A stretch of DNA of 64,000 bases from Bacteroidetes bacterium GWF2_43_63 (GTDB lineage Bacteria > Bacteroidota > Bacteroidia > Bacteroidales > DTU049), in contig MEOQ01000043.1 in the NCBI GenBank assembly GCA_001769275.1, positions 1-64,000 of the forward strand, written 5' to 3'. The stretch's first letter is position 1. The number at the start of each line of letters is the position of its first letter. Below the pieces are notes generated by a model. That model searched no databases. It was not told the origin of the DNA and worked only from the letters and a program-made list of their open reading frames with translations. The translations under genes and the position numbers were made by a program. Below, piece after piece: positions 9,278 through 64,000 of this stretch.

Positions 9278-9450
9278 TTGTTACGACATTCCACCGTTCC
9301 GGCCGAATACTATCCCTCGAAGGGTTTTGAACCCTTCGAGGGATTTTTAACCGGTCGGAACATGGAACCGTCGTAACAACAGCAAAAACAACGGGTCCAT
9401 GTACTTCAGCCCCTGCGTCGCTTTTGGACGGTTGAAAGTTGCTTTTGTTC
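9278..9450 (+). repeat. Family A double-hairpin repeat, copy A1
   Basis: Hairpin a: TTGTTACGA (9278-9286) and TCGTAACAA (9371-9379) enclose CATTCCACCG and CATGGAACCG. Its apex is a CCCTCGAAGGGTT/AACCCTTCGAGGG stem (about 9315-9342). Hairpin b starts at AGCAAAAACAA (9381); its right arm (to 9450) has decayed compared with the other copies. The surrounding gap 9140-9572 contains nothing else recognisable apart from the promoter of the next gene. Confidence 0.75.
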
Positions 9451-12687: not shown

Positions 12688-12729
12688 GTAATAATTGACG
12701 GAACGTGGCAGCTGTAAGCTATGTGCTCT

Positions 12730-13072
12730 CCCCGACATTTTAGCGCCAGCCTGAATGGAGTAACAACCAGACATTGCTGACCTGGAATCGTCGGAAAGAG
12801 CCTTAAGCACCCAACAGCTTGTCCGCCCACCGGCGGAATTCCGGGACCGCGCCTCTACTCAAAGCATGTATGGCGGACGCCAAAATGTTGGGTGCATTGG
12901 GCGTTGAATTTCCCGACATTTTAGCGTCAGCGGGAAAAGGTTGACCATGCAGCCTGCTGACCTGGAATCGTCGGAAAGAGTCTTAAGATCCAACGATTCC
13001 GGGACCGCGCCTCTACTCAAAGCATGTCTGTCGGGGAGATTATCCTGCCGCGGCAGGATCAAAATGTTGGGT
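12730..13072 (+). repeat. Family B double-hairpin repeat, two tandem copies (B1, B2)
   Basis: B1 (12730-12893) and B2 (12911-13072) each have hairpin a, CCGACATTTTAGCG to GACCTGGAATCGTCGG, followed by hairpin b, CCAAC to GTTGGGT. In B1 hairpin b has gained a TCCGCC/GGCGGA sub-hairpin; in B2 its loop carries the palindrome ATCCTGCCGCGGCAGGAT (13042-13059). The copies share the spacer (GGAAAGAG, CTTAAG). The gap 12666-13195 holds only these and the two promoters. Confidence 0.75.
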
Positions 13073-28187: not shown

Positions 28188-28248
28188 AGAATTCCTGTCA
28201 CACGGACATTTTACGACTTATTTTTCGAGGATGTCTCAAAATAGCGGG

Positions 28249-28419
28249 TTGTTACCACATTCCACCGTTCCGGCCACAATTAACCCTCGAAGAGTTACGA
28301 ACTCTTCGAGGGTTTTCTAAACAGGCCGGAACATGGAACCGTCGTAACAATAGCAAAAACAACGGTTCCATGTCCTTCAGCTCCTACGTCGCATCGGACG
28401 GTGGAATGTTGTTTTTGCT
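28249..28419 (+). repeat. Family A double-hairpin repeat, copy A2
   Basis: Nearly complete copy. Hairpin a runs from TTGTTACCA (28249) to TCGTAACAA with inner segments CATTCCACCG and CATGGAACCG. Its apex is CCCTCGAAGAGTT/AACTCTTCGAGGG, which differs from A1 and A4 by paired compensatory changes. Hairpin b runs from AGCAAAAACAA to TTGTTTTTGCT (ends 28419) with inner segments CGGTTCCATG and CGGTGGAATG. Upstream GATGTCTCAAAA resembles the terminal repeat seen with copy A3. Confidence 0.8.
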
Positions 28420-28470: not shown

Positions 28471-28600
28471 CTCAACAGCTTGTCCGCCTGCCGGCGGAAT
28501 TCCGGGTCTGCACCAATACACAGAGCAGGACAAGCAGACGCCAGAATGTTGGGTCTCCCGACATTCTATCGTCCGCTGCTGCGGACATGGAATCGTCGGG
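28471..28600 (+). repeat. Family B double-hairpin repeat, copy B3 (hairpin b before a)
   Basis: Hairpin b (CTCAAC at 28471 to GTTGGGT ending 28554, with the TCCGCC/GGCGGA insertion also seen in B1) is followed by hairpin a (CCCGAC at 28557 to GTCGGG ending 28600). With A2 and the family I hairpin it fills most of the 28165-28773 gap. A TAGCTTTG at about 28692 may be the -7 element of the next gene. Confidence 0.7.
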
Positions 28601-28773
28601 AAAATATGCACTATACTTTCTGAAAACTTGTTATCACGAGCCATTTTCAGCGCGTTTAACAAAATTAAATTTGGCCGGTTCCGGAAAAAACCCTAGCTTT
28701 GTTTTTCGCAATAATCCTGAAACCGGGTCTTAACACTTCTGCCGGTTTCTTTTTTTTCAACTAAATCCCGCAC

Positions 28774-37242: not shown

Positions 37243-37490
37243 CTTCTTCAACGCACTCGATAGTAATCACGACAGAAGGCTGTCTCGAAATACCGGTTTG
37301 TTACGACATTCCACCGTTACGGCCGGTGATTTGGAATTCTTCCATGCTTTTGAGCCGGAACATGGAACCGTCGTAACAATAGCAAAAACAACGGTTCCAT
37401 GTCCTTCAGCTCCTTCGTCGCATCGGACGGTGGAATGTTGTTTTTGCTCTGAAGTAAAATTTTGAGACAGCCTCGCAGAGAGGTTGAATA
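37243..37490. repeat. Family C repeat split by a family A element (C3 with A3)
   Basis: Left family C half 37243-37275 (CTTCTTCAACGC, hairpin TCGAT...ATCACGA) and right half about 37473-37490 (CGCAGAGAGGTTGAA). The middle of the C element, present in copies C1 and C2, is missing and replaced by the A3 element. Confidence 0.65.
37277..37473 (+). mobile_element. Family A double-hairpin element A3 with terminal inverted repeats
   Basis: AGGCTGTCTC (37277-37286) and GAGACAGCCT (37464-37473) are perfect terminal inverted repeats bounding 197 bases. Inside: TTGTTACGA (37298-37306) pairs TCGTAACAA (37371-37379); AGCAAAAACAA (37381-37391) pairs TTGTTTTTGCT (37438-37448). Inner segments: CATTCCACCG (37307-37316) is the exact reverse complement of CGGTGGAATG (37428-37437), and CATGGAACCG (37361-37370) of CGGTTCCATG (37392-37401). 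Non-coding, so any transposase acts in trans. Confidence 0.7.
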
Positions 37491-42935: not shown

Positions 42936-43026
42936 TATCAATGTTGAATTATGGGCAACTACCGTTTCGGATTCAATGGTCAGGAGAATAAAAGTGAGTG
43001 AAAAGAGTGATTGCGAAAAACATCAC

Positions 43027-43240
43027 ACCCAACGATTCCGTGTCCGCTCCTCTTCTCAAATCAATGTCTGGCGAACGACAGAATGTTGGGTGCTCCCCGA
43101 CATTCTACCGTCAGCTTGAAGGGGGTTGACAATACTGCATTGCTGACGTGGAATCGTCGGGGAGAAAGATGCTTGCACCCAACGATTCCGTGTCCGCTCC
43201 TCTATAAAATCAATGTCTGGCGGACGACAGAATGTAGGGT
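43027..43240 (+). repeat. Family B double-hairpin repeats in b-a-b order (B4, B5)
   Basis: Hairpin b: ACCCAAC (43027-43033) to GTTGGGT (43085-43091). Hairpin a: CCCCGAC (43095-43101) to GTCGGGG (43156-43162). Second hairpin b: ACCCAAC (43177-43183) to GTAGGGT (43234-43240). Inner segments cross-match between a and b (AGAATGT with ACATTCT; CGATTCC with GGAATCG). This is all that the 42936-43334 gap holds, apart from a small GCGCGCGCAGCGC-type palindrome near 43266. Confidence 0.75.
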
Positions 43241-43334
43241 GCATCGCTATTCCGGGATGCGAAAACGCGCGCGCAGCGCGGATCACACAAACAAATTATT
43301 CAACGGCATAGGTTAAAAAGAATACTGCAAAAAT

Positions 43335-48249: not shown

Positions 48250-48349
48250 ACTTAGTTCGGCGTAGTCTGAAAAGTATAATCTGCTGGCTGGCATTAGTCT
48301 GGAGACTAATGCCAACCAAATATTTTTAAAAGACTACGCCGAACTAAGT
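48250..48349. repeat. Family F long palindrome, perfect copy F2
   Basis: ACTTAGTTCGGCGTAGTCT (48250-48268) and AGACTACGCCGAACTAAGT (48331-48349) are perfect 19-base inverted repeats. Inside, TGGCATTAGTCT (48289-48300) and AGACTAATGCCA (48303-48314) form a perfect 12-bp hairpin with a GG loop. GTAGTCT/AGACTAC and TTAGTCT/AGACTAA share the same core, so inner and outer arms are related. Confidence 0.8.
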
Positions 48350-63793: not shown

Positions 63794-63860
63794 TATTTAC
63801 CTTCCGACACAAATTATTCAGATTACAGGATATATTAAATGACTGTCTAAAAACAGTTCA

Positions 63861-64000
63861 TTGTTACGACATTCCACCGTTGCGGCCGGTTTTAAATCCC
63901 TCGAAGGGTTTCAAACCCTTCGAGGGATGACTTTCGGCCGGAACATGGAACCGTCGTAACAACTACAAAAACAACGGTCCCATGTCCTTCAGCTCCTACG
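63861..64000 (+). repeat. Family A double-hairpin repeat, copy A4 (cut by the window end)
   Basis: TTGTTACGA (63861-63869) to TCGTAACAA with inner segments CATTCCACCG and CATGGAACCG. Its apex is CCCTCGAAGGGTTT/AACCCTTCGAGGG. Hairpin b begins with CAAAAACAACGG and is cut at 64000. GACTGTCTAAAA at 63841 resembles the terminal repeat of A3. Confidence 0.75.

Follow-up and report, generated by a model that had tools for sequence, protein, structure and literature searches.

The window, by which we mean the whole 64-kb stretch of DNA that was analysed, contains several copies of a repeat element, and we describe it here from the copy we call A3. The full element is about 200 bp long and has 15-bp terminal inverted repeats (TIRs) that enclose two abutting hairpins. 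The first TIR (most commonly GAGGCTGTCTCAAAA in this genome) is followed by a short spacer and hairpin a; 2-4 nt separate this from hairpin b, after which come another spacer and the second TIR. The two TIRs of A3 are imperfect inverted repeats of each other. An earlier note on this DNA had placed the unit at 37277-37473; the hairpins do lie there, and the actual unit, which includes the TIRs, has the bounds given in Table 1.

Both hairpins carry the frame AC-G-N7-GT on both arms, on the bottom strand in hairpin a and on the top strand in hairpin b. The 10-base segments inside each hairpin form a 7-bp helix that is flanked by two extrahelical G's, and this extrahelical G is conserved in 220 of 224 arms. 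When we read the sequence, the outer stems that had been described were exact (37298-37306 pairs with 37371-37379, and 37381-37391 with 37438-37448). The same is true of the reverse complements between the two hairpins (37307-37316 with 37428-37437, and 37361-37370 with 37392-37401), which are far above chance. It had also been claimed that these inner segments pair poorly within their own hairpin. This turned out to be wrong, as the minimum-energy fold of the A3 core is two hairpins with small bulges and pairs the segments as the 7-bp helix between the extrahelical bases.

Folded as DNA, the A3 core reaches -36 kcal/mol (z = -6.8), and none of 200 shuffles was equally good. For the whole element we obtained -47 kcal/mol (z = -7.5) and a predicted three-stem fold in which the TIRs are the outer stem. 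The loop of hairpin a varies between copies, and there is often another palindrome inside it. In many copies a further palindrome in this loop is of the kind CCCTCGAAG...CTTCGAGGG, for example within 28249-28350 and 63861-63960 of the window.

Table 1. Element A3, its copies and its relatives in the window, with one palindrome of the T type.
Feature	Positions	Strand	Description
A3, complete element	37276..37474	+	199 bp; order TIR, hairpin a, hairpin b, TIR
A3 left TIR	37276..37290	+	AAGGCTGTCTCGAAA; the commonest form in the genome is GAGGCTGTCTCAAAA
A3 hairpin a	37298..37379	+	10-bp foot, 5-bp core TTCCA/TGGAA, tip stem; bottom strand reads AC-G-N7-GT on both arms
A3 hairpin b	37381..37448	+	AT-rich foot; frame AC-G-GTTCCAT-GT / AC-G-GTGGAAT-GT; loop TTCAGCTCCTTCGTCGC
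A3 right TIR	37460..37474	+	TTTTGAGACAGCCTC
A1	9278..9448	+	both hairpins; b decayed
A2	28227..28418	+	left TIR and both hairpins; right TIR unrecognisable
A4	63839..64000	+	cut by the window end; the full copy (L138) extends to contig position 64077
P-type relative	43025..43250	+	array b-a-b
Degenerate Q-type relatives of P	12727..12987	+	
Lone single hairpin	28556..28601	+	same class
T-type (GTAG) palindrome	48257..48342	+	family whose centre holds some element copies elsewhere in the genome

Copies and subfamilies

Copies A1, A2 and A4 are present where they had been reported, and two arm probes (at most 3 mismatches) found 4 places each in the window, with 0.02 and 0.00 expected. The family extends well beyond these copies. 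When the genome that the window comes from (G000, a 3.98-Mb draft in 51 contigs) was searched at the nucleotide level, 40 of 105 candidates were scored and there were at least 50 match rows, of which 40 had E 3e-28 or better. Nucleotide and pattern searches together found 62 places in G000 where all four arms were readable. A genome of the same genus (G002) has 7 distinct arm sets. We built a covariance model from 41 cores and searched 392 related genomes with it, using stricter filters and scoring 7 candidates per genome. There were matches in 6 of the 392 at E <=0.001, and these were strong only in G000 and G002.

Searches in other kinds of DNA were negative: the element had no match in plasmids at E 1e-5, and two exact element patterns had 0 matches in viral contigs. 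A pattern scan of genome contigs returned 74 stretches. One of them (L099, titled Bacteroidales) has no hairpin pair by eye, and the remaining 73 are the background for the strict hairpin count given below. There is also an isolated 29-base match in another genome (G059).

Most copies (28 of 30 checked) are outside simple ORF calls of at least 120 aa. The strands of the neighbouring genes around 30 loci were -- in 11 cases, +- in 7, ++ in 6 and -+ in 5, with one open. Two copies (L001 and L002) have 94% identity and flanks that are apparently unrelated by eye. A flank-pattern search for an empty orthologous site in 4 genomes gave 0 matches, and we saw no excision product.

The copies form two subfamilies. 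In subfamily M, N7 is usually GTTCCAT/GTGGAAT; in subfamily N it is usually ATTCCAT/ATGGAAT, and the base that follows it is A, not G. Among 49 distinct arm sets in G000, 40 are pure (26 M and 14 N), which means that eight positions over four arms switched together. P-type hairpins are arranged as tandem a-b arrays that repeat roughly every 149 bp (43025-43250 in the window, L277 and L281), and a RAYT-like gene adjoins the array at L277. One protein of the window carries a T9SS sorting domain, and this fits Bacteroidota, the phylum with which T9SS is linked.

Terminal repeats and nested palindromes

TIRs are not known to be usual in REPs, and their presence brings up the possibility that the element is a MITE, with the 15-bp TIRs as ends read by the DDE transposase of some IS and the hairpins as passengers or regulators. 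GAGGCTGTCTCAAAA is found at both ends of many copies, and by eye the two ends of one copy often carry the same variant, CTGTCTC/GAGACAG or CTGTCTA/TAGACAG. The TIR-only units of 41-64 bp also fit a MITE, as does a weak excess of 3-bp flanking repeats (7 where 2.5 were expected in 60 elements). However, there was no longer target duplication over the 60 elements, and the hairpins are better conserved than the TIRs by eye. The TIR has 61 matches in the genome with at most 1 mismatch (2 for a control pattern), yet we found no transposase-sized TIR unit among the places read in this 51-contig draft, in which a multi-copy IS can be lost. A DDE transposase with the same ends, which had been put forward as something to look for, was thus absent from the TIR places that we read. 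We consider a MITE unlikely.

The TIR-only units are palindromes without hairpins (45 bp at L110, 64 bp at L127 and 41 bp at L130) and are perhaps deletion remnants. In four other genomes (G001, G003, G005 and G059), each of the TIR matches that we read is either a terminator-like hairpin or the end of a repeat at a contig terminus. In G005, eight contigs (L163, L168, L172, L175, L177, L181, L185 and L187) end in GAGGCTGTCTCAAAAGGGATAGCCTC plus about 50 bases, which may be the end of a multi-copy IS.

Some element copies lie inside another palindrome, of the T family, in which GCTGGGCGTAGTCT and AGACTACGCCCAGC stand at the left and right ends and an inner hairpin, with a spacer on each side, in the middle. 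This family is itself nested, with one motif shared by the outer and inner arms (also at L218, L228, L232 and L240). We measured 11 T pairs, which were 82 bp (7 pairs), 81 bp (2 pairs), 74 bp and 86 bp. At L003 the T arms are 258 bp apart and the 24-nt inner hairpin is replaced by a 200-nt element (258 = 82 - 24 + 200). In 104 element flanks from G000, a T arm (at most 2 mismatches in 10) starts 26-28 nt outside the element end 12 times and once elsewhere between -75 and -10; there was no T arm in 16 element flanks from G002. For 7 of 60 elements, where 1.1 would be expected, the left flank matches the right one as an inverted repeat beyond the 99% level set by mismatched pairs. At L130, the T arms enclose the 41-bp TIR palindrome. 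The palindromes here are layered, and what makes this matter is that some copies of the element occupy the exact place of the centre of a different palindrome, one that bears GTAG.

For five of the six 2.6-like RAYT genes that we read, there is a GTAG-containing palindrome within 260 nt (the exception is L033, and L197 and L208 are near-identical genes); the label "2.6-like" is our own assignment from motifs in a table of PMC6006769. It follows that T looks like the repeat of these genes and the present element does not. We rejected the 2.6-like RAYT as the enzyme of the element because the adjoining GTAG palindromes differ from it, and we rejected two 1.2-like Y1 genes (L031 and L032) because other palindromes adjoin them. 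These two are short Y1 genes (DH[IV]H, YVxNQxEHH) beside clusters of different short palindromes. The subclass that they resemble is generally without such structures, going by the sections of PMC6006769 that we used.

Two hairpins and cross pairing

We compared the two possible folds on 41 distinct cores with five measures and 500 shuffles. The two-hairpin fold (42 pairs, 93.8% paired cells) was above all 500 shuffles on all five measures, with double-sided changes in 19 pairs, where the shuffles gave 8.0. Covariation supports this fold. The cross fold, in which a1 pairs with b2 and a2 with b1 (24 pairs, 97.9% paired cells), was above all 500 shuffles on three measures, namely paired cells, double-change cells (51 vs 20.9) and covariation score. 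On the other two it was at the level of the shuffles, with 4 pairs showing double-sided changes (3.8 in shuffles, 387 of 500 reaching 4) and 11 pair types (11.0 in shuffles).

Those three measures would fit a cross-paired fold that is under selection in its own right, for instance because transposition passes through a junction-like state. A fold-switching element of this kind would also fit with RNAalifold, which prefers and, unaided, chooses the cross fold, and with the P and Q types, which retain several cross pairs at the expense of intra pairs (116 of 140 cross cells and 99 of 140 intra cells are paired in 10 P-type composites). In addition, four cross pairs change from C-G to T-A together between M and N. 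However, these four are all of the double-changed cross pairs, so the signal amounts to a single M/N switch. We do not take the concerted switch as proof of pairing, because one factor reading all four arms would give the same change. DNA energies are also against fold switching, as they prefer the two hairpins in 36 of the 41 cores, and there are copies that break the cross fold.

The exceptions are of several kinds. In two copies from G002 (L158 and L159), hairpin b now has TGCCA/TGGCA in place of TTCCA/TGGAA, which is compensated within b while hairpin a is unchanged, and the cross fold is broken. Two others (L118 and L124) are hybrids of a type N hairpin a and a type M hairpin b. In another genome (G173), the two hairpins have the cores TTCGA/TCGAA and TCCAA/TTGGA, which are complementary only within each hairpin. 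One copy (L126) has compensated feet in both hairpins. With all of this, we find it highly doubtful that the element is a fold switcher.

The earlier note had gone further and proposed a reciprocal two-hairpin code. As a strict rule we rejected it, on the basis of L158 and L159, the hybrids, the G173 cores and the cross-fold statistics that are at shuffle level. In these copies the inner segments do vary without matching changes across the hairpins; the 40 pure arm sets in G000 speak on the other side. That both folds are usable, as it had suggested, is improbable: the two hairpins are backed by covariation, and the cross fold exceeds the shuffles on three of five measures but breaks in the sister species (G002). 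The inner arms of a and b are reciprocally complementary because the hairpins are an inverted pair, so that a on the bottom strand is the same object as b on the top strand. The odd complementarity is therefore mostly what an inverted hairpin pair gives by itself, as in REPINs.

The strong predicted fold and the covariation would also suit a structured non-coding RNA family with two hairpins that is not mobile, but this is extremely improbable given 0 Rfam matches in the window at the gathering score, an inconstant gene context over the 30 loci, dozens of copies in one genome with 6 of 392 related genomes matched, and some copies nested in other palindromes.

RAYT-like genes and known repeat systems

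We compared all ORFs near hairpins against each other (79 loci, some overlapping). Among the best 40 of 581 pairs there was one protein family at three unlinked loci: L277 (G000:C9, 210 aa), L288 (G000:C42, 216 aa) and L263 (G173:C75, 225 aa). These loci came from looking beside hairpins, a search that would have missed unlinked genes. The three proteins are 37-61% identical to one another, and their genes have class hairpins on both sides, about 25-90 nt away. At L277 the covariance model matched on either side of the gene. It did so at L263 too, with the upstream match reaching only E 0.008, and at L288 it matched downstream. The upstream arm of L288, to which the model gave no support, is visible when the sequence is read and also shows up as a 54-nt repeat (93%). 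The other twelve Y1 loci that we gave to the model had no match at E <=0.01, and L213 had one at 0.25.

A strict hairpin finder made 5 matches in L263, one of which joins the arms of neighbouring hairpins, compared with 1 in 552 kb of unrelated DNA. It made 0 matches at L277, L288 and L213; at the P-type loci this is because the P-type helices hold one or two C.A mismatches. Other repeated protein pairs are found near hairpins, such as L007/L278, L287/L304 and L013/L286 among the same best 40 of 581.

The linked proteins are RAYT-like and divergent. All 13 Y1 proteins in our alignment have N-H-x-H and the tyrosine without variation, and the profile of these 13 matches E. coli TnpArep 4er8 at E 1.6e-11; the L277 protein alone matched no solved structure. 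Linked proteins score 30-50 bits against NF047646, below its cut-off of 80. Against PF01797 (cut-off 23) two of them score 19.6 and 16.8 bits and L288 has no match, and neither the L277 nor the L288 protein was among those listed when G000 was searched with PF01797. From the HuH strand to the next helix there are 46-49 residues in L277, L288, L263 and L213 and 17-28 in six other NHFH proteins. The linked protein has distant matches in 5 plasmid records, and there were none in phages (query L263) or viral contigs (query L277). L213, a RAYT-like gene in G001 whose protein is 43% identical to that of L277, has a different palindromic repeat on both sides (1332-1410, 2199-2277 and 2316-2391).

The genes at these three loci adjoin the divergent P/Q and G173 types. 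No gene of this RAYT group was found beside M/N copies, either at 30 loci of their own, most with 1.5 kb on each side, or in the window. The kinship to REPs and RAYTs that had been suspected thus holds for divergent relatives of the element at three loci, and we did not find it for the M/N copies. M-type elements are also present in G002; the closest protein that we saw there is L250 (34% to L277), and beside it the model had no match at E <=0.5.

We believe that the element is probably mobile but non-autonomous, a REP pair (REPIN/BIME-like) that belongs to a divergent RAYT group. Each hairpin is one imperfect palindrome, AC-G-N7-GT ... AC-G-N7'-GT, with the two hairpins inverted. If TnpA-REP enzymes are a guide, the hairpins are likely to be bound in single-stranded DNA by a divergent Y1 HuH transposase that moves the pair in trans, and the 15-bp TIRs of M/N could close the pair into the modelled three-stem fold. 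We infer that a RAYT-like enzyme acts on the class hairpins, that the M/N copies are likewise substrates of this enzyme or of one related to it, and that the elements move as single strands. This gives a RAYT group that scores below curated cut-offs a candidate substrate, for which the rule is clear: a variable 7-bp helix bracketed by two extrahelical G's. Integron attC sites, which are also a folded single strand with extrahelical bases, resemble the element in this respect.

A more far-reaching version would make this a new REP-pair class with its own Bacteroidota RAYT group, in which two extrahelical G's mark each hairpin symmetrically, on either side of a 7-bp helix whose sequence is free to vary. 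M/N would then use both folds, the hairpins for recognition and a cross-paired four-arm junction as the working intermediate, and a switch of specificity would have to take place in all four arms at once. We think this version quite unlikely.

In the open-access literature, including the portions of PMC3116915, PMC6006769, PMC3733652 and PMC12306157 that we consulted, we came across no account of hairpin pairs that have two extrahelical G's; subscription journals were mostly outside this search. The linked proteins share NH[YF]H and YIHNNP (YINNNP in L213) with TnpA Y1 subclasses 2.1, 2.3, 2.4 and 2.6, and the hosts of 2.4 and 2.6 include Bacteroidetes (PMC6006769, in part). Unlike what is seen at the linked genes, no REP-like sequences were found for 2.1 and 2.3, and most 2.4 genes have canonical GT[AG]G REPs, as far as the same sections of that paper go. 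In the alignment and the flanks read, we saw no GT[AG]G by eye where the foot of hairpin a or b lies.

The GTAG- and CGTC-tagged REPs and TIR-flanked tyrosine transposases of PMC3733652 (from the parts of it used here) are similar in that they are small palindromes, often in head-head dimers, and some Y1 genes there are flanked by repeated TIRs. The CGTC repeats differ in having 8-9 bp stems and mostly 4-5 nt loops, and they are unlinked to transposase genes.

The closest comparison is with REPINs, the inverted REP doublets of Pseudomonas fluorescens, and their RAYTs, as described in the portion of PMC3116915 that we used. In a REPIN, one long hairpin arises from pairing between the conserved bases of the two REPs, whereas in the present element each unit is a complete hairpin, the feet differ, and M/N carry TIRs. 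Both have two inverted imperfect palindromes in one extragenic high-copy unit, a predicted single-stranded DNA hairpin with compensatory changes, and RAYT genes near the repeats, which in the present class holds for the P/Q and G173 types.
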